Part shown: positions 17,282 to 44,742 of the stretch, one piece after another
Position numbering within the stretch: the stretch's first letter is position 1
How the letters are laid out: each line of letters begins with the position of its first letter
NCBI GenBank assembly: GCA_021792135.1
Contig: JAJYVF010000001.1
Location: 248,001 to 312,000 of the forward strand
Source of the DNA: Acidobacteriota bacterium
GTDB lineage: Bacteria > Acidobacteriota > Terriglobia > Terriglobales > Acidobacteriaceae
DNA length: 64,000 nucleotides
Direction of reading: 5' to 3'
Notes under the pieces: generated by a model
Told to the model about the DNA's origin: nothing
The model's database searches: none
What the model saw: the letters and a program-made list of their open reading frames with translations, nothing else
Made by a program: the position numbers and the translations under genes

Positions 17282-19951
17282 ATGAACCGCCACTTCTTTT
17301 TCTGTCTTGTCGCCTCCGCACTGCTGATCCCGCCGCTGCCTGCGGCCACCATCACGCCTCTGCACAACGGCTGGCGCCTGCAATCGGCGTGCAAGCTGAG
17401 CGTCGCCGGCGAGGCTATCTCCTCAGCGGGTTTTTCCACCGAGGGCTGGATCTCCGCCACCGTGCCCACGACGGTGCTCGCCGCGCAGGTGGCGGCCGGC
17501 CTTCTGCCCGATCCTTACTTCGGCGATAACCTGCGCAAGATTCCCGGAACCTCCTATCCTATCGGCCGCAACTTCTCCAACCTGCCCATGCCGGCGGACA
17601 GCCCTTATCACTGTGGCTGGTGGTACCGCGATGAGTTCACCGCTCCCGCCGCGGCCGGGAAGGCCGCGCAATTCTGGCTGCACTTCGGCGGCATCAACTA
17701 CCGCGCCGATATCTGGCTCAACGGCCATCGCATTGCCGATTCGACCCGGATCGCTGGCGCCTATCGCACCTATGACCTCGACGTCAGCGGCGTTCTGAAG
17801 CCAGGGGGACGCAATGTGCTCGCCGTCGAAACCTTCGCTCCCACGGAGAAAGACCTCGGCGTGAACTGGGTCGACTGGAATCCCGCGCCCCCGGACAAGG
17901 ACATGGGCCTGATTGGCGAGGTCCACCTCGTCGGCACCGGACCGGTAACCCTGCGCTCTCCGCTGGCTGTCACCCACTTTCCCGGCGACGATCTCAGCAC
18001 GGCCGATCTGACCGTGTACGCGGAAGTGGAGAATGGAACCGACAATCCCGTCCAGGGCACCGTCTCCGGCTCCGCCGCCGGCGTGACCTTTGAGCAGCCG
18101 GTCCAGCTCGCCGCTCACGAACAGCGAACCGTCGTCTTCACACCGGAACAGTTCCCGCAGCTGCGCCTTCACAATCCAAAGCTCTGGTGGCCGCGGCAGA
18201 TGGGCGACCCGCATCTCGAACCGCTCACCATGCGCTTTCGCACCCAGAATCAGGTCAGCGACGAGCAAACCGTTCTCTTCGGAATTCGCGAAATCACATC
18301 CGAACTGACCGGCAAAGGCGCCCGCCTGTTTCGCGTGAATGGCAAGCCGATTCTCATCCGCGGAGGCGGGTGGTCGCAGGACATGATGCTTCGCCCCGAT
18401 CCCAAACGTCTGCGCGAGCAGTTCCAGATGGTGCGCGATCTGAACCTGAATACAATTCGCCTCGAAGGCAAGCTCGACACCGACGACTTTTTCCGGCTTG
18501 CCGACCAGAACGGCATCCTCGTAATGCTGGGCTGGTGCTGCTGCGACCACTGGGAACGCTGGAAGTCCTGGACGCCGGAGGACCTGACCATCGCGACTGC
18601 TTCTCTCCGTTCGCAGATGCTGCGCCTGCGCTATCACCCCAGCCTGCTGGTATGGCTCAACGGCAGCGACAATCCTCCACCGGCCAGCGTGGAGAGCGCG
18701 TATCTGAATGTGGAGTCGCAGACGCACTGGCCCAATCCCACCCTCTCCTCGGCTTCCTCCACCGCGACCACCGTCAGCGGCGAGAGCGGCGTCAAGATGA
18801 CCGGGCCGTACGATTACGTTGAGCCCAGCTACTGGTATGTCGATCACACCCACGGGGGCGCCTGGGGCTTCAATACCGAAACCAGTCCCGGCCCGGCCAT
18901 CCCCTCGCGCGCCAGCCGCGCGAAATTCCTCTCCGATCCTGATGCCTTTCCGGCTTCACCCGACTGGCAGCTGCACTACGGCGGCGGCGGATTCGAGACC
19001 CTCAGCGTCCTCGATGATGCCATGGATGCGATCTACGCCAGACCTGCTTCCGCCGCCGACTACACGCGTCTCGCGTCCACCATGGAGTACGACTCCGAAC
19101 GTGCCATGTACGAGGCGTACAGCCGGAACAAATACGATTCCACCGGCGTCATCCAGTGGATGCTGAATAACGCCTGGCCCTCGATGATCTGGCACCTCTA
19201 CGATTACAACCTTGAAGCCGACGCCGGCTACTTCGCTGTCAAAAAAGCCTGCCAGCCACTGCACATCCAGTACTCCTACGATGACCAGTCCATCGTGGTC
19301 GTCAACAGCACCTACCATCCGGCCGAAGGTCTGCATGCCACCGTCGACGTCCACGGCATCCACTGGAACGAGCTTTACCACGGCACGGCGGTCGTCAACG
19401 CGCCTGCCGACAGCTCTCAGCAGATCCTGCGCCTGCCCGGGACACTGTACAACGGCACTGAGCGGATCTTTCTCATCGATCTCACCCTCGCGGATCCTGC
19501 GGGCCACGTCGTAAGCCGCAACTTCTATTGGGTTCCCTACACTCTCACAAGCTTCGACTGGGGTGCGACTTACTACACCCATACCCCCGCTGAACGCTAC
19601 CCGGACCTGACGGCACTTACCCATCTGCCGCCCGCCACTGTCGCCGCCCATGCCGAGATGCAGACGACAGCGCAGGGTCGCGAGATTGTGCTCCATCTCG
19701 ACAACCACTCCGGCGCGCTGGCCTTCCAGGTCGAGGCGGCGGTGCGCACCCAATCCGGAGACCTGATCGCCCCGGTCCTGTGGTCGGATAACTGGATCGA
19801 GCTTGTCCCCGGCGAGTCTCGAACGCTCACCGCGCAGCTCCCGGACGACGCTCCGGCCAATCCCGTGGTGAAGGTGGGGGGATGGAATATCGAACCCGCG
19901 ACCCTGACGCCGACGACCGGGGCGGGCTCCGCCGGAGCGGACCAGCGCTAA
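17282..19951 (+). CDS. GH2 exo-beta-D-glucosaminidase (CsxA-like), secreted
   Basis: Glycoside hydrolase family 2 enzyme, predicted to remove glucosamine from the non-reducing end of chitosan oligomers. The signal peptide begins MNRHFFFCLVASALLIPPLP; the longer ORF from 17207 adds 25 residues before it and was not used. The GH2 sugar-binding domain (GWWYRDEF, FGGINYRADIWLNG) and Ig domains lead to the TIM barrel. The acid/base is Asp463 in WLNGSDNPPP rather than the Asn-Glu of most GH2 enzymes, and the nucleophile is Glu533 in FNTETSPGP. This Asp/Glu pair is the hallmark of CsxA (D469/E541). It ends ~889 residues later, matching the family. Beta-mannosidase is the main alternative. Confidence 0.88.
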   Translation: MNRHFFFCLVASALLIPPLPAATITPLHNGWRLQSACKLSVAGEAISSAGFSTEGWISATVPTTVLAAQVAAGLLPDPYFGDNLRKIPGTSYPIGRNFSNLPMPADSPYHCGWWYRDEFTAPAAAGKAAQFWLHFGGINYRADIWLNGHRIADSTRIAGAYRTYDLDVSGVLKPGGRNVLAVETFAPTEKDLGVNWVDWNPAPPDKDMGLIGEVHLVGTGPVTLRSPLAVTHFPGDDLSTADLTVYAEVENGTDNPVQGTVSGSAAGVTFEQPVQLAAHEQRTVVFTPEQFPQLRLHNPKLWWPRQMGDPHLEPLTMRFRTQNQVSDEQTVLFGIREITSELTGKGARLFRVNGKPILIRGGGWSQDMMLRPDPKRLREQFQMVRDLNLNTIRLEGKLDTDDFFRLADQNGILVMLGWCCCDHWERWKSWTPEDLTIATASLRSQMLRLRYHPSLLVWLNGSDNPPPASVESAYLNVESQTHWPNPTLSSASSTATTVSGESGVKMTGPYDYVEPSYWYVDHTHGGAWGFNTETSPGPAIPSRASRAKFLSDPDAFPASPDWQLHYGGGGFETLSVLDDAMDAIYARPASAADYTRLASTMEYDSERAMYEAYSRNKYDSTGVIQWMLNNAWPSMIWHLYDYNLEADAGYFAVKKACQPLHIQYSYDDQSIVVVNSTYHPAEGLHATVDVHGIHWNELYHGTAVVNAPADSSQQILRLPGTLYNGTERIFLIDLTLADPAGHVVSRNFYWVPYTLTSFDWGATYYTHTPAERYPDLTALTHLPPATVAAHAEMQTTAQGREIVLHLDNHSGALAFQVEAAVRTQSGDLIAPVLWSDNWIELVPGESRTLTAQLPDDAPANPVVKVGGWNIEPATLTPTTGAGSAGADQR

Positions 19952-32648: not shown

Positions 32649-33092
32649 TCACTCGTTGCGGGTCTCCGGCACCCTGCGGCATTGGCAGCCCTCTGCCCTT
32701 CCCTGATGGGCAGCTGGCCCGGAATGTTGCTTTTCGGTGGCGCAGTGCGACGACATCGATCCCGGCTCCGGCGCCCGCGCGCGGATCAACTCCCCGCGAT
32801 CGAGAAGCGCCGCGAGCTGCGGCACAGGCGTCCTGGCAGGTCCAATCCACCCTCGGATCCCCGCCTGTTCGAGGTGCATGAATGCGCCAGGCCCAATCTC
32901 AGTAAAGACGGCATCGGTGCAGCCATGCTTCCTCATAATATCGACCACGGCTCGCCCATTCAGGACCGTGTTCTGCTCAAATATGCTCCGGCCACTCTCG
33001 TCCCGGATCAGCACCCATTTCCCTTTGCCAAAATGGGGTGACAGGGCTGAATCCTCGCGATTCAGCAGCGTGATAAATGCGGCCTTGCTCAC
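32649..33092 (-). CDS. Orphan dinitrogenase iron-molybdenum cofactor (NifX/NifB-like) domain protein, Cys-rich tail
   Basis: A 147-residue protein whose first ~95 residues match the DiNase_FeMo-co fold: LSPHFGKGKWVLI at the position of the PHFGxxxxF motif, then NGRAVVDIMRKHGCTDAVFT and the loop TEIGPGAFMHLEQAGIRGW. Members bind iron-sulfur or FeMo precursors in nitrogen fixers, but no nif gene is near. The tail (~100-147) carries extra Cys/His (SSHCATEKQHS, GCQCRR). The start is GTG 33092 with AGGAGG 6 nt upstream; an ATG at 33122 would lie inside the operator. A perfect TAGGTGTA-N3-TACACCTA repeat sits 15 bp upstream, linking it to the PadR regulon. Confidence 0.82.
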   Translation of the reverse strand: MSKAAFITLLNREDSALSPHFGKGKWVLIRDESGRSIFEQNTVLNGRAVVDIMRKHGCTDAVFTEIGPGAFMHLEQAGIRGWIGPARTPVPQLAALLDRGELIRARAPEPGSMSSHCATEKQHSGPAAHQGRAEGCQCRRVPETRNE

Positions 33093-33106
33093 TTTCGCCT
33101 CCTGAC

Positions 33107-33125
33107 TAGGTGTAGTATACACCTA
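33107..33125. promoter_or_regulatory. PadR-regulon operator A (perfect)
   Basis: TAGGTGTA-GTA-TACACCTA is an 8-bp perfect inverted repeat with a 3-nt spacer, immediately upstream of the ribosome-binding site of the NifX-like gene. Read on the - strand it contains TATACT, a good -10 hexamer, so binding would block transcription. The GGTGTA-N3-TACACC core recurs at 38446 and 41176. That PadR (37965-38381) is the binder is inference. Confidence 0.75.
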
Positions 33126-33509
33126 CAGGATCCCCCGATACCAGGCAATCCGCATTCTGTCCGGCTGGGTTTGGACCCATGCCCACCAGGCGACAACGGC
33201 GGCGCTGCATGCGCCTCCTGAACCCTCAGAGAAAGCGTCCCTTACCGGGCTGGCAGATCGGCCTTCTTCATGCGCCCCTCCTGCCTTCCATTCCGGATCG
33301 AATGGCGTGTATGGTTCGGCCGGGCCCCGAAAAGGAGGCACGAAAACGAGCTCCGTACGAAGCGTGCTGCGCCAGCCTGCGCCTCAGGATTCTTCTGCCC
33401 CGATCGGATCGCGTTCCCGCTCTCTCAGGAGCGTGAATTCCGGTCCTTAGCGGCGGCCTTTCTGAACCATTCCTCGCGGATCGCGCGGCCGTCCCGGTAG
33501 ACGCAGCTT
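33126..33509. other. Intergenic stretch with no convincing full gene
   Basis: No domain-bearing ORF was found. On the - strand, a strong AGGAGGGG precedes a nine-codon frame (33242-33271) encoding MKKADLPAR then TAA. It resembles only the first residues of DUF2256 proteins and may be a decayed start. Nothing else can be named. Confidence 0.4.
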
Positions 33510-34001
33510 TCATTCCTCCCTGCTCCCGGAACACGCGCGGCAGATCCGGGCAGCCATGGTCTCGCCTGTCGGGTTCCTGGCATCGGTCAGCTGCTCAATG
33601 CACGTCATGAACCCTGTCGGGAAAGCCGCGGGAAGCAGGCGATCGTCGTACAGTGCGTCATCCAGAGATTCATCCTGCGAGCGCACGACCAGGATTCTCG
33701 CCTGGGGCCAGCGATGGCGAATGAATTGGCAGGCATCCTCGAGTTCGAAGGGGAAGAGTGTGGAATGGAGAAGTGCGACGTCAATGGTCTGGCTTGCGGG
33801 AAAGACCCAAAGTTCCCTGTAGTCGGTCGCTATGCTCAGCGTACAGTTCTTTCGCGCCATCATGACATCGCGCACCATGTTGCTCAGGGCGATCGGCCCG
33901 ACAGAGAGAACATGCACCATGGGCGAAGGCTTGCCGGGCCCCGGCCGATTCGCTTTGATCAGATACGGGCCCGGCTTATGGGCATTCTGCGCGTGATTCA
34001 T
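33510..34001 (-). CDS. Receiver-like (CheY-fold) domain protein lacking a clear phospho-acceptor
   Basis: About 163 residues with a response-regulator-like pattern: VLSVGPIALSNMVRDVMMAR, then IDVALLHSTLFPFELEDACQ and RILVVRSQDESLDDALYDD. The usual acidic pair after strand 1 is absent (VLSVGP) and the usual Asp at the end of strand 3 reads ALLHST, so phosphotransfer is doubtful. The C-terminus (ICRACSGSREE) has two Cys. The start ATG 34001 overlaps the rhodanese-like stop by 4 bp; the ORF's longer start at 34139 runs back into that gene. Likely a cotranscribed partner of the rhodanese-like protein. Function unknown. Confidence 0.7.
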   Translation of the reverse strand: MNHAQNAHKPGPYLIKANRPGPGKPSPMVHVLSVGPIALSNMVRDVMMARKNCTLSIATDYRELWVFPASQTIDVALLHSTLFPFELEDACQFIRHRWPQARILVVRSQDESLDDALYDDRLLPAAFPTGFMTCIEQLTDARNPTGETMAARICRACSGSREE

Positions 34002-34474
34002 GCTGCTTCCACTCCGGCACGATCCTCCTGCAGCAGATAGAACGGGGCCGTACCGCACAGACCGGGGCTCGTCTCGATCATGAATGCGGCAAGTCCGGAC
34101 ACACCGCAGAATGCCGCGCTCTGTGTCGGCGGAAGCCATTCCAGAATCTCCTGGAGGTCTTCCGGGCCAATGCGAAGAACACGCGCGGGCGGGAGCTGGA
34201 GAGGCTGCGTCACCTGCTTCCGAAGATCGATCACGAGCAGATCGTCGGTGTCCTGAACAAGAATGGCTCTGAGCTCAGACGTGGAAATCCATCGGATCGG
34301 CCGATTGCCCTGTCCGGCGGAATCGTTGGGTGAACTCCGTAACGGAACAGATGGCCGGCCAATACCATCTGCCGCCGCACGAAAGGCGCGGCGCGCAAAC
34401 CGCAGGACCTGCCATTCCGGAATAACAAGGACTACGATGGTGGCCGTTGCCGCCAGGAGCCAGAGAACATACAT
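33998..34474 (-). CDS. Membrane-anchored rhodanese-like protein
   Basis: A 158-residue protein with one N-terminal membrane helix (VLWLLAATATIVVLVIPEWQ) and a C-terminal rhodanese-like domain. WISTSELRAIL, then DDLLVIDLRKQ corresponds to the family VIDVR. PTQSAAFCGVSGLAAFM places a Cys at the active-site loop position. The match is by pattern, and the loop is shorter than in classical rhodaneses, so sulfurtransferase activity is uncertain. It is coupled (4-bp overlap) to the receiver-like gene, in a block rich in thiol enzymes. Confidence 0.7.
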   Translation of the reverse strand: MYVLWLLAATATIVVLVIPEWQVLRFARRAFRAAADGIGRPSVPLRSSPNDSAGQGNRPIRWISTSELRAILVQDTDDLLVIDLRKQVTQPLQLPPARVLRIGPEDLQEILEWLPPTQSAAFCGVSGLAAFMIETSPGLCGTAPFYLLQEDRAGVEAA

Positions 34475-34560
34475 GTTTTACCCTCACCGCGGAAAGTTTC
34501 AGAGGCGGCCTCATCCGCAGGGCAGATGCGAACCGCCCGGACGAACGGCCCGAGTATCGG

Positions 34561-34914
34561 CTAGCTTTGGAGAACCGGTGAGGGAGGAGAACGCGAACAG
34601 GAATGAGACTGATCTGTGCCGGCTTCATACACCTCGAATGGCACGGTGCCGCTCAGGAAGCGAAGAAGGGGACACTGCGACCGGTGAAACAGGAGAACCT
34701 GTGAATCCTGGGTCAGACGGGAGGTATTGGCGGGAGTCGCTGCGATGGGTGGATGTCGCTGTTCGATCCAGAGCCTGGCCACGAAATGGCGCGACGAGCT
34801 GCGATGACTGTGATAGAACCACAACCTTGCACCAAGTCCACCCAGGAATACGGCAAGCGCCAGCGCGGGGAGACTGAGTGCCAGGGCTCCGGGGACCGGA
34901 CCCCTCGAAGGCAT
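34561..34914 (-). CDS. Hypothetical single-pass membrane protein
   Basis: Possible 117-residue protein beginning MPSRGPVPGALALSLPALAL, with one strong membrane helix followed by a basic loop (FYHSHRSSSRH) and a Ser/Pro-rich end. I do not recognise it. An upstream in-frame ATG at 34998 is also possible. It precedes the rhodanese-like gene by 86 bp on the same strand, which would make a three-gene unit. The membrane helix and position are the only support, and other frames are also open here. Confidence 0.4.
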   Translation of the reverse strand: MPSRGPVPGALALSLPALALAVFLGGLGARLWFYHSHRSSSRHFVARLWIEQRHPPIAATPANTSRLTQDSQVLLFHRSQCPLLRFLSGTVPFEVYEAGTDQSHSCSRSPPSPVLQS

Positions 34915-34998
34915 GCCGGGACAGGTCCTGTTTTGCACGATGGATTGGTACTGCTGTGCGGCACCAAATGCGATCCGGGCTGGGGTACTGCCATCCAC

Positions 34999-35322
34999 AG
35001 GATTGGGTAGCTGTTGCTGAGCCGGTGGGATAGGGTCTGAAATTTAGACGCACTGCCCTGCCAGAACGTTGCAGAAGTCCCGGACTGCGGGAATGTGACC
35101 CGGATCACAGATTTGCCTGCCAACCAGGCATAAACTAATCGCCCTCCTTTCGCGCCACCGGCTGACAGGAGGCCCTTCAACGGGGTTTCGGCCGGCCTGA
35201 GCCGCGGCAGAATCCGATATCTATCGATAACTCAGTTGCCCTTCGTAACTATTGCATCCCGGCAGGCGTCTGAGGGATTGGAGGCCTCGGCTGACGAAAG
35301 CGGAGGCGGTACGGGTTTATGC
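34999..35322. other. Intergenic region upstream of glgP
   Basis: No gene. It carries a perfect CRP/FNR-type site (35094-35109) and a -10-like box (35131-35136) at class II distance. The 35236-35322 part continues the glgP frame but lies before the preferred ATG. Confidence 0.6.
35094..35136 (+). promoter_or_regulatory. CRP/FNR-family site with class II promoter for glgP
   Basis: TGTGA-CCCGGA-TCACA at 35094-35109 is a perfect palindrome centred at 35101.5. A centre at -41.5 predicts a start near 35143 and a -10 starting at about 35131, where TAAACT (4 of 6 matches to TATAAT) is found. There is no -35 box, as expected for an activator-dependent promoter. The arrangement points to activation of glgP; the regulator is not in the window. 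Confidence 0.7.
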
Positions 35323-37839
35323 ATGACTGAGAATCTGTTGGCCGGAATTGATCCCACCGATGTCCTGAGAGAAATCGCGCTCAATCTGCGCTGGTCCTGG
35401 AACCATACCGCCGATGAGCTGTGGGGCCAGATTGACCCGGAATTATGGGAGACGACTCAAAACCCCTGGGTGATGCTGCAGACCGTGTCGCGGGAGAAAC
35501 TGAAGGCCGCCACCGCGGACCCGCAGTTTGTGCAAAAGCTCAATCAGGTCATGCAGAGAAAGCAGCGGCGCGAGCAGGCAGCCAGCTGGTTTCGTCAGTC
35601 CTGGGCGCAACCCCCGTTCGCGCGCATCGCGTACTTCAGTATGGAGTTCATGCTCAGCGATGCCCTGCCCATCTACTCAGGCGGTCTCGGCAATGTCGCC
35701 GGGGACCAACTGAAGGCGGCCAGCGATCTGGGAGTTCCGCTGGTGGGGATCTGTCTGCTGTATCAGGTGGGCTATTTCCGGCAGCGGATCGACGGGGATG
35801 GCCGGCAGCAGCCGCTCTATCCCTTCAATGATCCCGGACAGCTCCCCATACAACCGGTACGGCAGGCAAACGGAGAATGGCTGCGCATTGCGCTCGATCT
35901 GCCAGGATTCCGGATGTGGGTCCGGGTCTGGCAGGTCGAGGTCAGCCGGGTAAAGCTCTACCTGCTCGATACCAACGATCCGGCCAATCTTCCCGAGTAT
36001 CGGGGCATTGCCAGCGAACTGTACGGCGGCGGACCGGAGGTCCGCATTGCCCAGGAGATGGTGCTCGGCATTGCGGGTTGGAGGCTGCTGCGCGCCCTGG
36101 GGACCCCGCCCGAGGTGTGCCACCTGAACGAGGGTCACGCGGCCTTTGCTGTCCTTGAGCGGGCGCGCGACTATATGACCGAAGCCAGAGTGTCCTTCGA
36201 GACGGCATTGACCGTGATCCGCGCCGGCAATCTCTTTACCACCCACACCCCCGTGGCCGCGGGCTTCGATCGATTTGCTCCGGATCTGGTGGAGCGGCAC
36301 TTCCGGCATTACGCCCGGAACGCGCTTCATATTTCCATGCAGGATCTGCTGGCGCTGGGGCGGCAAAATCCCGCCGATCCCTCGGAACCCTTCAGCATGG
36401 CTCTGCTCGCCATGCGCGGCAGCGGCGCCGTTAACGGCGTGAGCCGCCTGCACGGCCAGGTGAGCCGGCGAATCTTTCAAAATAGCTTCTCCCGCTGGCC
36501 GGAGGCTGAAGTGCCCATTGGACACGTCACCAACGGCGTGCATGTTCCCATCTGGGACTCTGCAGAGGCCGACAATCTGTGGACCGAGGCCTGCGGGCGG
36601 CAGCGCTGGGACAGCGATCTGAAGAAGCTGGAAGAAGATATCCGTCGGGTCCCCGACGAGCATTTGTGGCAAATGCGCGCAGCCGCGCGGAAATCATTCG
36701 TTGAATACATCCGCCGCAGGCTGGCCCGCCAGATCGCGGGACATGGCGGGTCGGCGGAAGAGATCGCAGCGGTGGAGCGAATTTTCGATCCCGATACGCT
36801 GACCCTCGGCTTTGCCCGGCGGTTCGCCACCTATAAGCGGCCCAATCTGCTGCTGCACGACCGTGAACGCCTGCTGGCGATTCTGACCGGCGCCGACCGG
36901 CGCCCCGTGCAGCTGGTGATCGCCGGTAAAGCGCATCCGCAGGATACGGCCGGGCAGGAGATGGTGCGCCAGTGGATTGAATTCATCCGCCGCACGCCGG
37001 CCCGCACCCGCGCCGTCTTTCTCAGCGACTACGACATGCGTCTCTCCGAACATCTGGTGCAGGGGGTGGACCTGTGGCTGAATACTCCGCGCCGTCCCTG
37101 GGAAGCCTGCGGCACCAGCGGCATGAAAGTGCTGGTGAACGGCGGACTGAATCTCTCCGAGTTAGATGGATGGTGGGCGGAAGCCTATTCGCCCGACGTG
37201 GGCTGGGCGCTCGGCGACGGCATGGAGCACGGCGATGATCCCGACTGGGACGCCGCGGAGGCTGAGCAGTTATACACGCTGCTGGAGCAGCAGGTGATCC
37301 CGGAATTTTACAACCGCGACGCGAACGGCATTCCAACCAGCTGGATTCGCCGCGTGCGGGAAAGCATGGCGCGGCTGACAACCGCGTTTTCGGCCACCCG
37401 ATGCGTGCGCGAATACACGGAGAAGTATTATGTTCCGCTTGCCGCCGCGTACAGGAAAAGAAGCTCCGATGAAAACAAAACGGCCGAAAGCCTGCTGCGC
37501 TGGCGGCAGGAACTCTCCGATCAGTGGCCCAGGGTTCGCTTCGGGTGCGTGCGCGTGGAGACCAACGCGCACCGGCACCGGTTCGAGGCCGACGTCTACC
37601 TGAACGAGCTCCGCCCTGAGGCGATTCGCGTCGAGCTCTACGCCGAGGCATCCGGGAGCCACAAGCTGGTTCGCGAGCCGATGGTTCGCGGTAAGTCACT
37701 GATCGGCCAAAACGCCTGGTGCTACTCTGCCACCGTCGGTGCGGATCGGCCGGCGGACGACTTCACTCCACGGGTCATTCCGTCGCATCCCGAGGCATTC
37801 GTCCCGCTGGAGGCACCGCAGATTCTCTGGTACCGCTGA
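35323..37839 (+). CDS. glgP: Alpha-glucan (glycogen/maltodextrin) phosphorylase, GT35
   Basis: Releases glucose-1-phosphate from storage glucan with a PLP cofactor. The ~838 residues show the bacterial alpha-glucan phosphorylase start (NLRWSWNHTADELW), AYFSMEFMLSDALPIYSGGL, CHLNEGHAAFAVLERARDYM, GHVTNGVHVP, RRFATYKRPNLLL and the PLP-lysine region EACGTSGMKVLVNGGLN. The family is the shorter glgP branch with a DUF3417-type N-terminus, not the E. coli MalP type. I use ATG 35323. A class II CRP/FNR-type site upstream suggests induction under oxygen or energy limitation, fitting the stress genes around it. No glg synthesis genes are adjacent. Confidence 0.93.
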   Translation: MTENLLAGIDPTDVLREIALNLRWSWNHTADELWGQIDPELWETTQNPWVMLQTVSREKLKAATADPQFVQKLNQVMQRKQRREQAASWFRQSWAQPPFARIAYFSMEFMLSDALPIYSGGLGNVAGDQLKAASDLGVPLVGICLLYQVGYFRQRIDGDGRQQPLYPFNDPGQLPIQPVRQANGEWLRIALDLPGFRMWVRVWQVEVSRVKLYLLDTNDPANLPEYRGIASELYGGGPEVRIAQEMVLGIAGWRLLRALGTPPEVCHLNEGHAAFAVLERARDYMTEARVSFETALTVIRAGNLFTTHTPVAAGFDRFAPDLVERHFRHYARNALHISMQDLLALGRQNPADPSEPFSMALLAMRGSGAVNGVSRLHGQVSRRIFQNSFSRWPEAEVPIGHVTNGVHVPIWDSAEADNLWTEACGRQRWDSDLKKLEEDIRRVPDEHLWQMRAAARKSFVEYIRRRLARQIAGHGGSAEEIAAVERIFDPDTLTLGFARRFATYKRPNLLLHDRERLLAILTGADRRPVQLVIAGKAHPQDTAGQEMVRQWIEFIRRTPARTRAVFLSDYDMRLSEHLVQGVDLWLNTPRRPWEACGTSGMKVLVNGGLNLSELDGWWAEAYSPDVGWALGDGMEHGDDPDWDAAEAEQLYTLLEQQVIPEFYNRDANGIPTSWIRRVRESMARLTTAFSATRCVREYTEKYYVPLAAAYRKRSSDENKTAESLLRWRQELSDQWPRVRFGCVRVETNAHRHRFEADVYLNELRPEAIRVELYAEASGSHKLVREPMVRGKSLIGQNAWCYSATVGADRPADDFTPRVIPSHPEAFVPLEAPQILWYR

Positions 37840-37964
37840 CGACCTCCTGTGCGAACTTGTCTTCCCGGCGCCATTCGGCCCGATGGTGTCCCCCGGCCCC
37901 GTGAAATCTGATATCGCTATCCGCGTTCCGCCTTCCTGCCGCCGTCCCCCTCCCGGCCGGTACT

Positions 37965-38381
37965 TCAGGCAGACTTCTTTCTCATGGACGGCTGGCGAAG
38001 AGATTCCCTCGTGTCCCGAACGAATCGGCTCATTGACTTCGAAAGATGCTCCAGCACCTCAGACCATTCCTCCAGGTGCTGCTCGCCCTTCGCAGTAAGC
38101 CTGTAAACGCGCCGCGCCGGCCCGCCCCCGTCGGTCTCCCATTCGGATTTCACATTGCCATTCATCTCGAGTTGTCGAAGCGTCCGATATAACGCCCCCT
38201 TCTCGATCTCCGCGTCGGTCAGAGCGTGCTCGGCGAGATCCGACGCGAGGTCATAACCATACGAATGCCCCTTCTTCTTCAGCAGCAGAAGGACCACCGG
38301 CTCGACAAAACGGTAGAGATTGCCCATCCCGCATGTGCAGGGATAATTTTTGCCATGTCGCTGACAGATCCTTCGTGGCAT
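37965..38381 (-). CDS. PadR-family transcriptional regulator with N-terminal cysteine cluster
   Basis: Winged-helix repressor of about 138 residues. The PadR core starts LYRFVEPVVLLLLKKKGHSY and includes the recognition region KGALYRTLRQLEMNGNVKSE, then the wing RRVYRLTAKGEQHLEEW and a C-terminal dimer helix. Before the core lies a short extension with Cys6, Cys15 and Cys17 (ICQRHGKNYPCTCGMGN), a candidate metal, Fe-S or thiol-redox sensor. ATG 38381 lies 9 nt from AGGGGG, against 3 nt for ATG 38387. Inverted repeats at 38444 and 38501 lie in its promoter region, suggesting autoregulation. The same repeats precede two other genes or operons. Confidence 0.88.
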   Translation of the reverse strand: MPRRICQRHGKNYPCTCGMGNLYRFVEPVVLLLLKKKGHSYGYDLASDLAEHALTDAEIEKGALYRTLRQLEMNGNVKSEWETDGGGPARRVYRLTAKGEQHLEEWSEVLEHLSKSMSRFVRDTRESLRQPSMRKKSA

Positions 38382-38443
38382 TCGCATTGCCCCCTGGTGA
38401 TTGCGTTCAGCCGGACCCGTTTTCCATCATAGCATTTCGCAAA

Positions 38444-38462
38444 TAGGTGTACGATACACCCC
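38444..38462. promoter_or_regulatory. PadR-regulon operator B
   Basis: TAGGTGTA-CGA-TACACCCC keeps the GGTGTA-N3-TACACC core, with two mismatches at the right outer end. It lies 63 bp upstream of the padR start and 130 bp upstream of the divergent NifX-like gene. A TATGAT -10-like box for padR is at 38426-38431 on the - strand. Confidence 0.72.
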
Positions 38463-38500
38463 TTGTGCCGAATCCAGCTCCACACAGTGTTAGTCTAATA

Positions 38501-38519
38501 TAGGTGTTAGTCACACCGT
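38501..38519. promoter_or_regulatory. PadR-regulon operator C (degenerate)
   Basis: TAGGTGT-TAGTC-ACACC keeps GGTGT and ACACC half-sites, but with a 5-nt gap and no outer match on the right. It lies 73 bp before the NifX-like gene at 38592. It may be a second, weaker site for that promoter. Confidence 0.45.
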
Positions 38520-38591
38520 TCAGGGAGGGCTGCACGGACATTCCCTGCATGATGTGGTACTCCGAGTTCTTTCCGAGAAAGGAAACGCTGC

Positions 38592-38930
38592 ATGCGCATT
38601 GCCATTCCGATCGCAGACGGCCGTCTTCATCCCCACTTTGGACACTGCCAGAGCTTCGCTCTCATCGACATCGACCCCAATACCAGTACCATCCTTGCAG
38701 CCTCTGAAATCGCCGCACCGGAACACCAGCCCGGCCTGCTGCCGCCCTGGCTGAAGGAACGCGGCGTCGATCTTGTCATCGCCGGCAACATGGGTTCACG
38801 TGCCCGGTCGCTGTTCGCGACCGTCTGTATCGAAACCATCACCGGAGCGCCGCCGGAGGACCCCACGACGATTGCACGGCATTACCTGGCCGGTACCCTC
38901 GTAACCCGCGAAAACACCTGCGATCACTGA
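38592..38930 (+). CDS. Orphan dinitrogenase iron-molybdenum cofactor (NifX/NifB-like) domain protein
   Basis: A 112-residue single-domain protein. The start MRIAIPIADGRLHPHFGHCQ contains the family PHFGHC motif, followed by FALIDIDP, WLKERGVDLVIAGNMGSRAR and the C-terminal ITGAPPEDPTTIARHYLAG. Stand-alone members without nitrogenase genes are common in anaerobes and are thought to handle Fe-S or metal clusters; their role is unproven. It is divergent from padR with two operators between them. The CoA-disulfide reductase gene follows 42 bp later, so it leads the regulated operon. Compared with the paralogue at 32649 it keeps the Cys in PHFGHC and lacks the Cys-rich tail. Confidence 0.9.
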   Translation: MRIAIPIADGRLHPHFGHCQSFALIDIDPNTSTILAASEIAAPEHQPGLLPPWLKERGVDLVIAGNMGSRARSLFATVCIETITGAPPEDPTTIARHYLAGTLVTRENTCDH

Positions 38931-38972
38931 GGTCTCGGCGGAAGCGCCCATACTGAGGTCGATGGAGAGATC

Positions 38973-40649
38973 ATGGAGACAAAACGAGTCGTCATTGTTG
39001 GCGGTGTGGCTGGAGGCGCGACCTGCGCGGCCCGCCTCCGGAGGCTTGACGAGAGCGCAGAGATCGTCGTCCTGGACCGCGGCGAGTATGTATCCTTCGC
39101 GAACTGCGGCCTTCCCTATTACGTCGGTGACGTGATCCGCGATGAGGAGAAGCTTCTGCTCGCCTCTCCCCCCCTGTTTCGTGAGCGCTTCAATATCGAC
39201 GTCCGCACACGGCATGAGGTGCTTGCGATAGACCGGGTGGCCGGCGAGCTTGTGGTCCGGGACCTTGCCACCGACAGCGAATATCGTGAACCGTACGATG
39301 CCCTTGTCTTGTCGCCGGGGGCCGCTCCGGTTCGCCCGCCTCTGCCGGGTGTCGACCTGCCCGGTATCTTTACCCTGCGTTCGATTCCGGACAGCCGCGA
39401 CATCCGCAGCTGGATCGCCTCCCGCAAGCCGCGGCGGGCCGTGGTGGTGGGGGGCGGTTTCATCGGTCTCGAAATGGCGGAGAATCTTGCGAACCGAGGC
39501 ATCAAAATCACGATCGTCGAGATGATGAATCAGCTGATGCCCCCGCTGGATATGGAGATGGCGGAGTATGTGCACGAGCATCTCTACGCGTGCGGGGTTC
39601 GTCTTCATATGGGCGACGGCATTGCGGGATTTGAGCTCTCGGACCGCGGCGATCTCGTCGTACGTACGCAGGCGGGGGCGGCCATTGAGTCGGACCTCGT
39701 GATCCTCGCCATGGGCGTGCGTCCGGAAACGAAGCTCGCGCGCGAAGCAGGCCTGGAGATCGGAGAACGAGGCGGCATTCGCGTCGACGCGCAAATGCGG
39801 ACCAGCGATCCCCGCATCTGGGCTGTCGGAGACGCGGTGGAAGTCCGGAATGCCGTTACCGGTCTGTGCGAGCTGATCCCGCTTGCCGGCCCCGCCAATC
39901 GACAGGCGCGTGTCGCTGCCGACGCCATCTGTGGCCGGACCACCCGCTTCCGCGGCGTCGAGGGGACCGCGGTCTGCGGCACGCTGGGTCTGACGGTCGC
40001 GCTTACGGGCGCCACCGAAAAGGCGCTGCATCGATCCGGCATGAAGGGCTTCAGGGCTGTTTGGCTGCACGCCAGTCAGCATGTTGGGTATTATCCCGGA
40101 GCACAACCGATCCATATGAAGCTCCTGTTTCGCGCTGCGGACGGCCTCGTACTTGGCGCCCAGGCGGTAGGCCGGGAGGGGGTTGAGCGCCGCATCGACG
40201 CGATTGCCCTGGCGATCCAGATGAAGGCGACAGTATTTGACCTTGAGGAAGCCGAACTTTGCTATGCCCCTCCGTACGGTGCCGCCAAAGATCCTGTGAA
40301 TCTGGCGGGGATGGTCGCGGCCAACGTGCTGCGCGGCGACGTAGATCTGGCGCCATGGGGCGAGCTCGGTGCCACCGACGCATTCCTGCTCGACGTGCGT
40401 GACCCCCAGGAGTTTCTCGCCGATTCCGTCGACGGCGCCGTTAACATCCCGCTGGGCGAGCTGCGAGCCAGGATTGCGGAGCTGCCGCAGGACCGGGAGA
40501 TCTGGATCAGCTGCGGGGTCGGACAGCGCGCCTATTACGCCTGCCGAATTCTGACCCAGCACGGATTGTCTGCCCGCAACCTCTCCGGAGGCTACCAGAC
40601 ATATCGGGTCCTTTATCCGGAGGGTGTCGCCCAGCCGTGCGTGTGCTGA
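38973..40649 (+). CDS. CoA-disulfide reductase / NADH-dependent persulfide reductase with rhodanese domain
   Basis: A 558-residue flavoenzyme. The N-terminal FAD domain starts RVVIVGGVAGGATCAARLRR. The single redox Cys45 is in SFANCGLPYY, the mark of the CoADR/Nox/Npsr group. The NAD-binding motif VVVGGGFIGLEMAENL is near 150 and the FAD motif IWAVGDAVEV near 275. The C-terminal rhodanese domain (~460-558) has LLDVRDPQEF and active Cys514 in SCGVGQRAY. The fusion (CoADR-RHD) reduces CoA disulfide, CoA-persulfide or polysulfide with NAD(P)H in characterised relatives. It sits between the NifX-like and thioesterase genes in the PadR-linked run. Confidence 0.93.
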   Translation: METKRVVIVGGVAGGATCAARLRRLDESAEIVVLDRGEYVSFANCGLPYYVGDVIRDEEKLLLASPPLFRERFNIDVRTRHEVLAIDRVAGELVVRDLATDSEYREPYDALVLSPGAAPVRPPLPGVDLPGIFTLRSIPDSRDIRSWIASRKPRRAVVVGGGFIGLEMAENLANRGIKITIVEMMNQLMPPLDMEMAEYVHEHLYACGVRLHMGDGIAGFELSDRGDLVVRTQAGAAIESDLVILAMGVRPETKLAREAGLEIGERGGIRVDAQMRTSDPRIWAVGDAVEVRNAVTGLCELIPLAGPANRQARVAADAICGRTTRFRGVEGTAVCGTLGLTVALTGATEKALHRSGMKGFRAVWLHASQHVGYYPGAQPIHMKLLFRAADGLVLGAQAVGREGVERRIDAIALAIQMKATVFDLEEAELCYAPPYGAAKDPVNLAGMVAANVLRGDVDLAPWGELGATDAFLLDVRDPQEFLADSVDGAVNIPLGELRARIAELPQDREIWISCGVGQRAYYACRILTQHGLSARNLSGGYQTYRVLYPEGVAQPCVC

Positions 40650-40691
40650 CCGAGCCCGATATCGATTCGCCGGTTCGGAGGAGGAAGATCG

Positions 40692-41144
40692 ATGCTGCAG
40701 GAACAAGCGGTGAAAGCAAAAGAAGCGGACACGCCATTGCACGCCCGGCCTGGCTCCGCCTGCTTCGCCTGCGGAAAGGACAACCCACAGGGCCTGCGAA
40801 TCCGGTTCCATCGCACAGGCAATGGCGATATGGCCGCCGTCTGGACTCCGGAGACTGTCTGGGAAGGTTTCAATGGAATTATCCACGGGGGCGTCATCAG
40901 CACGGTTCTCGATGAAGCGATGTCCAAAGCCATGGCCGCAGCCGGTGTTGAAGCCCTCACCGCCGAGCTCCGTGTGCGATTTCGCCGGCATGTCGTCGCA
41001 GGCCAGGCGATGCGCCTTCGGGGCTGGATCATCTCGCAAAACCGTCGCCTGGCCCGAGCGGAAGCGACCCTGACCGGAGACGGAGAGGCCGAATATGCTC
41101 ACGCATGGGCGACATTTCTGACGCTGAAAGACAGAACGAGCTAG
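40692..41144 (+). CDS. PaaI-type hotdog thioesterase
   Basis: A 150-residue single-hotdog protein. It has the CFACGKDNPQGLRIRFH start of a subgroup with a Cys pair (C-x2-C, possibly a metal site) and GFNGIIHGGVISTVLDEAMS, the HGG catalytic loop with a following Asp. LTAELRVRFRRHVVAGQ completes the fold. Predicted to hydrolyse an acyl- or aryl-CoA; the substrate is unknown. It has a strong GGAGGAAGATCG ribosome site and follows the CoA-disulfide reductase by 42 bp. The neighbourhood makes a CoA-thiol housekeeping role attractive but unproven. Confidence 0.88.
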   Translation: MLQEQAVKAKEADTPLHARPGSACFACGKDNPQGLRIRFHRTGNGDMAAVWTPETVWEGFNGIIHGGVISTVLDEAMSKAMAAAGVEALTAELRVRFRRHVVAGQAMRLRGWIISQNRRLARAEATLTGDGEAEYAHAWATFLTLKDRTS

Positions 41145-41173
41145 AAGGTCGCTGGACCTGCCTTCGGCCGATT

Positions 41174-41192
41174 AGGGTGTATGATACACCTA
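41174..41192. promoter_or_regulatory. PadR-regulon operator D
   Basis: AGGGTGTA-TGA-TACACCTA holds the GGTGTA-N3-TACACC core (41176-41190), with mismatches in the outermost left bases. A TATGAT -10-like hexamer (41180-41185) lies within it, reading towards the DsbA-like gene at 41306. It is the third core-perfect copy in 8 kb. Confidence 0.72.
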
Positions 41193-41305
41193 AATGCTGT
41201 TTACAGCTCCACCGGCCCGGCGCGCCGGGAGATCCTTCCGCAGGAGCGGTTGGATCTTCGACACAGAGTGTGCGCATCAGGGCAATCGGCGACAGGAGGT
41301 GGCAA

Positions 41306-41701
41306 TTGAAAGTAGCCCGTTTTGCGCTCTGGCGGCCCGCTCGCCGAGCCACTTTGTGTCTGCTCGTCGCTGCTTCATTTCTCGGCCTTCCGGCAACTGC
41401 CCAGGATTCCGGACAGACAAAGCTCGATGCCTTTGCCAAATGCCTTACCCAAAAGAAAGCCACGCTGTACGGCAGCTTCCTGTGCCCTCATTGTGATGAC
41501 CAGCGCAAAGTCTTTGGCCAATCCTTTGCCTGGGTGCCCTACGTGGAATGCTCGATGGTCGGTTCCCGGCAGGAAACCTCCAGCTGCCAGGCAGCCCATA
41601 TACGCTATACGCCGACCTGGGTTTTTGCCGACGGCGACCGCTATGTTGGCGTGCAGTCTCTGAAGCAGCTCAGCGTCAAGACAGGATGCCCTCTTCCATG
41701 A
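41306..41701 (+). CDS. Periplasmic thioredoxin-fold protein, VKOR partner (DsbA-like)
   Basis: A 131-residue exported thioredoxin-fold protein. A signal peptide (residues ~1-32, LCLLVAASFLGLPATA) precedes a domain with LYGSFLCPHCDDQRKVFG: the redox pair Cys60/Cys63 as CPHC, like DsbA-type oxidases. It also has a second Cys pair (82, 94), and RYTPTWVFADG with the cis-Pro. This form is the thioredoxin domain often fused to or paired with bacterial VKOR. The start is TTG 41306, 5 nt after AGGAGG, not the ORF start at 41105 inside the previous gene. The ATGA overlap with the VKOR gene shows coupling. Confidence 0.87.
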   Translation: MKVARFALWRPARRATLCLLVAASFLGLPATAQDSGQTKLDAFAKCLTQKKATLYGSFLCPHCDDQRKVFGQSFAWVPYVECSMVGSRQETSSCQAAHIRYTPTWVFADGDRYVGVQSLKQLSVKTGCPLP

Positions 41702-42165
41702 AGACCGCGATCCGCCTCCTGTTCATTCTCCTTTGCCTGTGCGGCATCGCGTTATCCGCCGTGTCGCTTTACAACCACTACGCCGTTGCGGCTACCGAAT
41801 ACTGCGACTTCGGACAAACGTTCAACTGTGACATCGTGAACCGGAGCCGATACTCCGTATTCCTGGGACTTCCCGTCGCCCTCATCGGATTGTGCGGCTA
41901 CGCCGCATTGCTCGGACTGACGCTGTCCGGCAATCGGTGGGCCAGGATTGCAAGGTTCGGATTCGCCATCCTGGGCTTCGCTTATTCCCTCCGTCTGACC
42001 TGGATTGAGGCCAGAGTGCTCGGAACCTGGTGCGTGCTGTGCCTCGGATCGCTCCTGGCAATCGCCGGCATCCTCCTGCTGTCGGCAATCGATCTCCGCG
42101 ATTCCCCGAAGTCGATTCCCGAACATCCGGGAGTAAGAGACGCCAGTCTCAATGAACTCGGGTGA
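41698..42165 (+). CDS. Vitamin K epoxide reductase (VKOR) family membrane oxidase
   Basis: Inner-membrane enzyme that reoxidises the periplasmic disulfide catalyst using quinone, replacing DsbB in some bacteria. The 155 residues have four membrane helices and all four diagnostic cysteines: Cys36 and Cys44 in the periplasmic loop (EYCDFGQTFNCDIVNRSRYS) and the active pair Cys112-x2-Cys115 (GTWCVLC). The start ATG 41698 overlaps the DsbA-like stop by 4 bp; an in-frame ATG lies 12 bp upstream. Together with its partner and the upstream operator it forms a disulfide-forming pair probably controlled by PadR. Confidence 0.92.
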   Translation: MKTAIRLLFILLCLCGIALSAVSLYNHYAVAATEYCDFGQTFNCDIVNRSRYSVFLGLPVALIGLCGYAALLGLTLSGNRWARIARFGFAILGFAYSLRLTWIEARVLGTWCVLCLGSLLAIAGILLLSAIDLRDSPKSIPEHPGVRDASLNELG

Positions 42166-43603: not shown

Positions 43604-44002
43604 TCAGATCTCGTTCAGAGCTTCTGCGAGATGGCGTCCCGCCTCCGATGCGATTGCGGCGAGCTCCGGGTTCCCTGTGAGGCCCACAAGCGCCTCCGGG
43701 TTTGCTGCTGCTATATGAACACCACTGGCTGTCTCCCGGAGCGTGACATTGCACGGAAGCAGGACCGTAATCCCTGGTTCTGCCTGAATAGCCCGATAAG
43801 CCAGGGCGGGATTGCATACCCCGAGAATCACTTCGCGAGGCGTTTCAACTCCAAGCTTCGCTTTGAGGGCCTCAGAGATTTTGATCTCCGCCTGCACCCC
43901 GAAGCCATGGCGCGCCAGAATCTCCTTCGTGCGATTCAGCGCCTCGTCGAAATCCAGCGGCAACTCCCCCGCCGAACCAAATCCGAACGATGTCACCTGC
44001 AT
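43604..44002 (-). CDS. DUF302 domain protein
   Basis: A 132-residue cytosolic protein of the DUF302 family. The pattern LDFDEALNRTKEILARHGFG, IKISEALKAKLG and REVILGVCNPALAYRAIQAE, then ITVLLPCNVTLRE matches the family core (xxGFGVLTEID...LGACNPxxAxxAL...LPCNVxV). The two Cys in GVCNP and LPCNV are conserved in the family. Function is unproven; relatives often occur with redox and anaerobic-stress genes. It follows the thioredoxin 2 gene by 27 bp on the same strand. Confidence 0.9.
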   Translation of the reverse strand: MQVTSFGFGSAGELPLDFDEALNRTKEILARHGFGVQAEIKISEALKAKLGVETPREVILGVCNPALAYRAIQAEPGITVLLPCNVTLRETASGVHIAAANPEALVGLTGNPELAAIASEAGRHLAEALNEI

Positions 44003-44029
44003 AACTCCGCTCCCCCTGTGCGATGGCTG

Positions 44030-44455
44030 CTAAGCAGCACGTGCGAGCCAGGTCTTCATGGTATCCGCATCGACCAGGCCTGCCTGCTGGAACCGGAGGC
44101 GGCCGCGCGCAAAAACTGCGAAATTCGGAATGCCCTGGACGTTATACTTCCAAGCAAGTTCCGGGAAGCTCTCGGTGTCGACCTTGAGCACGACAGCCTG
44201 GCCTGCGAGGTCGCGAGCGACCTGTGCAACGTGCGGCGCGGCCATGCGGCAGGGACCGCACCACGAGGCCCAGAAATCGACCAGGACAGGAACTGTGCTG
44301 TCACGAACAATTTCGTCGAACTCCTCGGGGCTGACTTCGATGGGTTCTGCCATCGCCGGCAGAGGCGCCTTGCACGCGCCGCACTGGCCGGCATCAGCAA
44401 GATGTCTGGATGGAATTCGGTTTGGCTTACCACACGCGGGGCAATTTCTGATCAT
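44030..44455 (-). CDS. trxC: Thioredoxin 2 with N-terminal zinc ribbon
   Basis: A 141-residue cytosolic disulfide reductase. The N-terminal zinc site is Cys5/Cys8 (CPAC) and Cys25/Cys28 (CGAC). The thioredoxin domain carries FWASWCGPCRMAAP with Cys66/Cys69 and the cis-Pro loop VQGIPNFAVFARG. The four zinc cysteines separate TrxC from Trx1 and in E. coli tune it to oxidative stress. ATG 44455 begins the conserved MIRNCPACGK; ATG 44470 adds five residues. It leads the trxC-DUF302 pair. Divergent from the holin-like gene with ~290 bp between them; I see no PadR or CRP/FNR site there. Confidence 0.94.
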   Translation of the reverse strand: MIRNCPACGKPNRIPSRHLADAGQCGACKAPLPAMAEPIEVSPEEFDEIVRDSTVPVLVDFWASWCGPCRMAAPHVAQVARDLAGQAVVLKVDTESFPELAWKYNVQGIPNFAVFARGRLRFQQAGLVDADTMKTWLARAA

Positions 44456-44742
44456 GGCGGTATATGTCATCTCCCCGGGGTCGGACCCCGAAATGTGTCT
44501 TCGTCTGAACGAACAGGCTGCGGACCCGTGGCCGGGATCGCTCCTCTCGTGTGCGCATCCGTCGATCGCGCCGGGAGGCTCCGGATAATCGCTCCCGGGA
44601 GCGCCCGTCCGTACCACAGCCGTGCCGGCCGTATTGATCCCTCAGATGTAAAACGCCGGGAGCGCCAGAGGCGTTACAGAAAGAGTTGAAACCCGGACAG
44701 CCTCTTTGTCCGGCGGAAGCCAAAGAACGGAAAGGAGAAAGC

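Follow-up and report, generated by a model that had tools for sequence, protein, structure and literature searches.

A probable operator shared by a PadR regulator and sulfur-handling and NifX-like genes in Acidobacteriota

The padR locus and its inverted repeats

This analysis concerns a stretch of 64,000 nucleotides from an Acidobacteriota bacterium (contig JAJYVF010000001.1; hereafter the window), in which padR and other genes close to it are preceded by copies of the inverted repeat GGTGTA-N3-TACACC. Judged from sequence, this PadR very probably regulates its own gene and, via a shared operator, a few others with sulfur-handling or metal-sulfur-binding products. The padR gene (37965..38387, minus strand) encodes 140 amino acids with a PF03551 match of 5e-18. 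A unit of three plus-strand genes diverges from it: a NifX/ORP-like protein bearing the motifs HFGHC and, C-terminally, CDH (38592..38930; PF02579, 1.1e-16), a coenzyme A (CoA)-disulfide/CoA-persulfide reductase fused to a rhodanese (CoADR-rhodanese, 38973..40649; TIGR03385, 1.9e-141) and a hotdog-fold (4HBT) thioesterase (40692..41144; PF03061, 8.1e-10). Upstream in window coordinates lies a NifX-like (Nitro_FeMo-Co) protein of 147 amino acids on the minus strand (32649..33092, GTG start at 33092; PF02579, 2.6e-7), and beyond the thioesterase follow, both on the plus strand, a thioredoxin-like CPHC partner of VKOR (41306..41701) and a VKOR family disulfide-forming membrane protein (41698..42165; PF07884, 8e-21 on the longer open reading frame 41548-42165).

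Perfect cores of the repeat occupy 33109-33123, 38446-38460 and 41176-41190, and a copy with two mismatches lies at 38503-38517; no further match with up to two mismatches occurs in the window. An earlier note on this DNA had listed the three perfect cores and the degenerate copy, had found no other and had placed each perfect copy just upstream of a named gene set, all of which holds. The full palindromes are given here without strand, with scores from the weight matrix described below. Operator 1 (TAGGTGTAGTATACACCTA, 33107..33125) has a perfect core and 25.2 bits, shows 0 mismatches to the broad consensus and ends 14 bp ahead of the GTG start of the minus-strand NifX-like gene. Operator 2 (TAGGTGTACGATACACCCC, 38444..38462; perfect core, 12.0 bits) lies in the divergent region between padR and the second NifX-like gene, as does the degenerate operator 3 (TAGGTGTTAGTCACACCGT, 38501..38519; 2 mismatches, 9.8 bits), 57 bp from operator 2. 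Operator 4 (AGGGTGTATGATACACCTA, 41174..41192; perfect core, 15.5 bits) stands upstream of the thioredoxin-like/VKOR pair and is accompanied, at exactly 17 bp, by a weak tandem copy of 9.6 bits (TAAATGCTGTTTACAGCTC, 41191..41209) that the earlier note did not contain. Each of the three perfect sites likely sits at a promoter.

Shuffled windows held a mean of 0.57 core matches, and 0 of 100 shuffles gave four or more. Across the whole genome (5.11 Mb in 77 contigs) the three window copies are the only perfect ones, in genes or elsewhere, and the core with 0-1 mismatch occurs at 8 places, compared with 2 for a control pattern written backward. The longer consensus TAGRTGYA-N3-TRCAYCTA returns the same three places only when 0-2 mismatches are allowed; with 0-3 mismatches it returns 20 places in the genome and the backward control 43, so that these further places are at chance level. 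Chance palindromes as the source of the window copies are ruled out by the window shuffles and the genome scans.

Conservation of the operator and its association with PadR

A genome scan kept 80 of 100 relatives of the window PadR, equivalent to 79 distinct loci that by their record titles belong mostly to Acidobacteriota, and also to Armatimonadota, Geobacteraceae and a few other groups. Within 350 bp upstream of padR, 49 of the 79 loci carry TAGRTGTA-N3-TACAYCTA with at least 13 of 16 positions matching, a level reached by 0.1% of shuffles and by 1.1% of 1373 other stretches of these loci. A weight matrix built from these 49 sites gives the broader operator TAGrTGyA-N3-TrCAyCTA. The matrix was applied to 85 loci, a set that omits four of nine extra regions because by contig and length they duplicate named loci (L026=L056, L027=L063, L028=L079 and L031=L088); counts over 89 loci include these four. 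In the 1.297 Mb of the 85 loci it found 166 sites of at least 10 bits, compared with 3 in one shuffle, and 78 of the 85 loci hold at least one site of at least 14 bits. Seven of the source genome's eleven further PadR matches were checked, and as none of the seven has a site above 5.9 bits, a generic acidobacterial PadR site is rejected.

The sites also occur in arrays. Among pairs of sites of at least 8 bits and no more than 130 bp apart, 19 are spaced by exactly 17 bp, compared with 3 for the next commonest spacing, which suggests that neighbouring dimers would occupy contiguous 17-bp units. A looser group at 57-80 bp represents double operators, mostly in the divergent padR promoters of relatives.

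The distribution of the repeat follows that of the protein. Taking a match at E <=1e-20 as presence of the PadR subfamily, it occurs in 9 of 120 related genomes, several of those scored as lacking it being incomplete. The motif with 0-1 mismatch is found in 7 of the 9 genomes with the protein and in 3 of the 111 without it (Fisher p 7e-8); the backward control, present in 20 of the 120 genomes, shows no such link (2 of 9 and 18 of 111). One of the seven (G013) counts through a site on another contig, inside a reading frame, and the stricter co-occurrence is 6 of 9; the two misses (G056 and G117) carry weaker sites, the best of 19.3 and 17.4 bits. The window's genus is represented by 11 other genomes; of these, only G001 encodes the PadR and it carries the operator, which the remaining ten lack at 0-1 mismatch. 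Taken with the 120-genome comparison, this same-genus pattern indicates that the palindrome goes with the protein and not with the lineage. The attribution of the repeat to a PadR regulon in the earlier note thus gains support: of the outcomes that the note named as refuting it, neither many random copies inside genes across the genome nor a lack of conservation beside padR orthologues was observed, and the repeat is rare in relatives without the regulator. Spread by mobile elements was also considered. The viral contig scan gave 37 stretches with the pattern and no relative, and phage spread is rejected; plasmid records held distant PadRs only (7 of 72,556, none covering 80% of the query), and plasmid copies of the system are likewise rejected.

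The regulator and its candidate target genes

The window regulator scores 65.3 bits against PF03551 (gathering score 27), and its structural model has a predicted local distance difference test value (pLDDT) of 83.4 with a long C-terminal helix at residues 99-131; the 50 PDB matches listed by the fold search were mostly PadR-family or LmrR-based structures. The best-matching named models are PhaQ (TIGR02719; 68.8 bits) and an acidobacterial PadR (TIGR03433; 53.6 bits), yet both scores fall far under the cut-offs of 139.35 and 101.8. The genome holds 12 PadR matches, of which the next best is 31% identical to the window protein, making the latter the sole member of its subfamily there. Its N-terminus carries the motif C8-x2-H11-x5-C17-x-C19 (38331..38366, minus strand), a candidate sensor or metal site. 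In an alignment of 64 of 80 proteins (the window protein and those of the 79 loci, with 13 plus L069, L076 and L097 left out), H11, C17 and C19 never vary, and conservation of C8 reaches at least 90%. Among 94 members of the PadR BLAST cluster the CxxH...CxC pattern recurs in 83, a looser C...CxC in 7 and neither in 4; by eye, two of these four retain the cysteines with LG in place of MG, and two are unrelated PadRs.

Candidate targets were read from the genes downstream of the sites. The 166 sites and their 108 downstream proteins include divergent neighbours on both sides and derive from home-made gene calls, which makes some of these "targets" false, and 25 of the 166 sites fall within called genes. 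By site-gene pairs, padR leads with 82, followed by three NifX-like kinds (25, 18 and 6), the thioesterase (12), CoADR-rhodanese (10), VKOR (2) and many single cases. The 108 proteins comprise 35 with Nitro_FeMo-Co (PF02579), 9 with rhodanese and 7 with 4HBT domains, as well as 2 each of VKOR, AhpC/TSA, molybdopterin oxidoreductase and TrmO_N. At a threshold of at least 12 bits, 142 of 151 sites are near a called gene start, compared with 32% of random positions, and a NifX-like gene stands behind 47 of the 151. The 50 such sites more than 1 kb from padR offer a more independent test, because the matrix was trained on padR promoters: behind them are 12 NifX-like genes (random 1.1%), 4 4HBT genes (random 0.5%), 2 TrmO-like genes and one each of MBL and VKOR. 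The earlier note had stressed a mix of thiol and persulfide genes; these genes are indeed present in the window, but across relatives NifX/ORP/IssA-like genes are the commonest besides padR, the thiol/persulfide enzymes being less widespread. In five loci (L036, L037, L068, L078 and L090), MBL-fold, TrmO-like and NifX-like genes are repeatedly found close to the operator or to one another.

The two NifX-type domains of the window belong to different kinds. The protein at 38592..38930 matches the C-terminal domain of NF041136 (MrpORP) at 1.5e-31 and 110 bits, under the model cut-off of 450, and 13 of the 38 proteins in its cluster have HFGHC. The protein at 32649..33092 has relatives with a similar start in its BLAST cluster (L063/L027, L079 and L103). 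By eye, this kind and its relatives in L027, L032 and L103 are without HFGHC and bear a C-terminal tail with Cys, His and Gly, as seen for window-type NifX_c proteins; the tail may bind metal.

The CoADR-rhodanese scores 471.8 bits against TIGR03385, under the curated cut-off of 578.8; its best solved relatives, which align over nearly the full length, include 3icr, 3nta and 8a56, and CoADR and rhodanese domains are fused in it. Its translation contains, in an unaligned reading, FANCGLPYY and CGVGQRAY, whose cysteines we take to be those of the active sites. The BLAST cluster places this enzyme in 13 of 89 loci. This count is relied on here because the hidden Markov model (HMM) count of 20 of 85 is contaminated by other flavoproteins, of which L045 and L096 give examples.

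No Pfam family matches the thioredoxin-like protein, but in its 41309-41701 translation residues 43-129 match 3kp8, a VKORC1/thioredoxin domain protein, at 1e-19, and by the look of its N-terminus, where a signal peptide was judged by eye, the protein would be secreted. A TTG codon after GGAGG, read from the sequence, is the likelier start of this gene; the longer reading frame from 41105, which would contain operator 4, is unlikely. The VKOR gene start, also read from the sequence, overlaps the thioredoxin-like gene by ATGA. Just past the pair, 43604-44617 on the minus strand encodes a DUF302 protein and a thioredoxin 2-like protein (Zn ribbon plus thioredoxin), at which there is no operator of at least 8 bits.

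Further sulfur functions appear beside padR in relatives. In four acidobacterial metagenome-assembled genomes (L045, L047, L050 and L051) padR adjoins a sulfur island with DsrE-like, TusA-like and Hdr-like genes at about 10-17 kb in locus coordinates, with DsrC-like, flavoprotein and ArsR-type genes also in L047 and L050. For L050 these assignments come from Pfam (DsrC, two DsrE-like, TusA, ArsR-type and Fe-S/flavin proteins, the last of which we take to be Hdr), and for the other loci from BLAST clusters. Two L050 sites (17360-17378 and 17434-17452) precede the ArsR-type gene, again by Pfam, and a site in L092 (13643-13661) precedes a gene that looks ArsR-like by eye, an arrangement that may point to a regulatory cascade involving a further, ArsR-type regulator.

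Proposed mechanism, rival explanations and related systems

In our reading, to which we assign a probability of roughly two in three, the window protein is an autoregulated, local PadR repressor that senses reactive sulfur or the state of an iron-sulfur (Fe-S) cluster or metal. Comparison across relatives strongly supports TAGrTGyA-N3-TrCAyCTA as the operator of this PadR, with NifX-like and 4HBT genes among its targets; CoADR-rhodanese and VKOR are weaker candidates as targets outside the window, and repression and the ligand are what we infer. A PadR dimer with the N-terminal C-x2-H-x5-C-x-C site would bind the operator at its own promoter, and the same protein would bind the promoters of the NifX/IssA/ORP-like genes, of CoADR-rhodanese plus thioesterase and of the thioredoxin-like/VKOR pair. 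A change at the Cys/His site, whether persulfidation of a thiol or the gain or loss of a metal or Fe-S cluster, could then release the regulator. Under rising sulfide or persulfide the induced proteins might store, buffer or traffic metal-sulfide, CoADR-rhodanese would clear CoA-persulfide, the thioesterase would free CoA from acyl-CoA and so refill the free pool, and the thioredoxin-like/VKOR pair would restore disulfides outside the cytoplasm. More tentatively, and at slightly less than even odds, we speculate that the family forms an undescribed class of PadR in Acidobacteriota, Armatimonadota and relatives: its short N-terminal Cys3His site would bear an Fe-S cluster or accept sulfane sulfur, its operator arrays would be bound cooperatively in 17-bp units, and it would link CoA-persulfide clearance and disulfide repair to the storage of metal-sulfide by NifX/IssA-like proteins.

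Several observations weigh against this reading. The matrix was trained on padR-upstream sites, which renders the padR count partly circular. In six of the 85 loci (L045, L062, L087, L096, L098 and L099), one of them a sulfur-island locus (L045), no site reaches 11 bits. Either the operator differs in these loci or padR is not self-controlled there. L087, L096, L098 and L099 are Geobacteraceae by title; a distinct Geobacteraceae operator was considered, and a convincing shared palindrome was not seen in those four loci. No CoADR gene stands behind the 50 distant sites, and sites before CoADR-rhodanese genes occur in six loci, all in promoters divergent from padR, where control of the enzyme is indistinguishable from padR autoregulation. 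The modelled PadR residues 1-30 have block means of 53, 67 and 76, a low-to-middling confidence at which no geometry of a metal site can be claimed. A sigma-70 scan detected no promoter at the window operator sites, its two matches being at chance (mean 2.1). Last, the motif occurs in 3 of 111 genomes that are without the PadR subfamily.

The strongest competitor, which we consider unlikely, keeps the same PadR-operator pair and makes metal or Fe-S state the primary signal; the core would be Fe-S or Mo/Cu-S cluster trafficking by the ORP/NifX-like proteins, with the thiol enzymes as accessories. Sites of the IscR or YqjI type offer a parallel for three Cys and one His. The predominance of NifX-like genes among targets besides padR (35 of 108, against 9 rhodanese and 7 4HBT; 47 of 151 sites) speaks for it, as do Mrp-like and ParA/ferredoxin-like clusters, which HMMs detect no more than 5 kb from padR in 11 and 15 of 85 loci, respectively, the latter count being inflated by other flavoproteins and at least one Hdr-like protein. 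The Di-Nase domain of MrpORP, with CXHFGHCE and CDH motifs, is moreover reported to bind Fe-S (PMC6345978). Against this alternative, the CoA-persulfide reductase, rhodanese, thioesterase, VKOR and DsrE/TusA-like neighbours have sulfur and not metal functions.

An activating or dual role of PadR at these sites appears improbable to a greater degree. Some sites lie more than 100 bp upstream of called starts, and promoter elements could not be placed in the window, both of which would suit an activator; operator 1, in contrast, with its 14 bp before the GTG start and a TATACT inside it, is well placed for blocking, and most PadR proteins act as repressors. The earlier note had drawn a repressor layout from -10-like hexamers within the repeat. 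The hexamers TATACT (minus strand) and TATGAT (plus strand) are present in the window sequence, but the layout argument is weak, as the promoter scan leaves a sigma-70 promoter inside the repeat unsupported; some operators of relatives, such as TAGATGCAACTTGCATCTA, are by eye without a -10-like hexamer. That the palindrome belongs to another regulator, for instance of the ArsR or CRP/FNR type, and merely adjoins padR is a very remote prospect. It could draw on the sites before ArsR-type or ArsR-like genes in L050 and L092 and on the three genomes that have the motif without the PadR; however, two of these three matches (genomes G096 and G104, loci L130 and L137) lie inside reading frames of at least 80 amino acids, the third (L129) lying outside, and no known target was recognised by eye beside the motif in any of the three. 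The motif, furthermore, co-occurs with the PadR and is directly upstream of padR in 49 of the 79 loci.

Several known systems are close to the proposed PadR repressor. CstR is a CsoR-family protein with an all-helical fold different from that of PadR and with a different operator; the window regulator is not of CsoR type and has a PadR domain and fold instead. The CstR regulon of Enterococcus faecalis and Staphylococcus aureus (a cst-like operon with coaP) resembles the present one in that a reactive-cysteine repressor controls a CoA-persulfide reductase (CoAPR) and rhodaneses, whereas NifX-like or VKOR targets are not mentioned in the part of the source available (PMC9405070). In E. faecalis, CstR is reported to control CoAPR, and sulfide to raise CoAPR and two thioesterases; the authors of that study propose that the latter might release CoA (PMC9405070). 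In the sulfur response of Pyrococcus furiosus, which includes IssA/SipA and a CoA-dependent sulfur oxidoreductase, the likeness is a NifX-domain protein: IssA/SipA is reported to be strongly induced by sulfide when iron suffices (PMC5524996). That system differs in being archaeal. Its regulator is SurR, a name absent from the text of that paper, and IssA carries a cationic Gly-rich thioferrate tail.

YqjI (NfeR) of E. coli and Salmonella has an N-terminal metal-binding extension, two sites in a divergent region and a ferric reductase as single target. It shares the PadR family with the window protein and is a metal-responsive repressor; the N-terminal motif here is a short CxxH-CxC, the regulon differs, and no yqjH-type ferric reductase occurs among the window targets or the 25 leading of 133 target families listed. 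YqjI is reported to repress yqjH, a gene with a role in iron homeostasis when nickel is in excess (PMC11255904). The ORP operons of Desulfovibrio likewise contain NifX-domain proteins (Orp8, MrpORP) in divergent operons, but the portion of the source available names a sigma-54 promoter and, by the title of a work it cites, a cognate regulator, and does not mention PadR (PMC6345978). The earlier note knew of no described PadR system that matches; among the matches listed, read at the level of titles and abstract openings in mostly open-access literature, none has a PadR controlling NifX-like, CoADR or persulfide genes.

Altogether, the conserved PadR-operator system is apparently real and its regulon undescribed. 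Known PadR ligands are mostly phenolics and drugs, and, if confirmed, a PadR subfamily linked with NifX-domain proteins and the clearance of persulfide would add a class of sulfur or Fe-S sensors. Because the operator is conserved, sequence would suffice to predict the regulon in soil and sediment phyla that are poorly cultured. Such a subfamily would also open a way, through regulation, to the many largely uncharacterised NifX-domain proteins that act outside nitrogen fixation.

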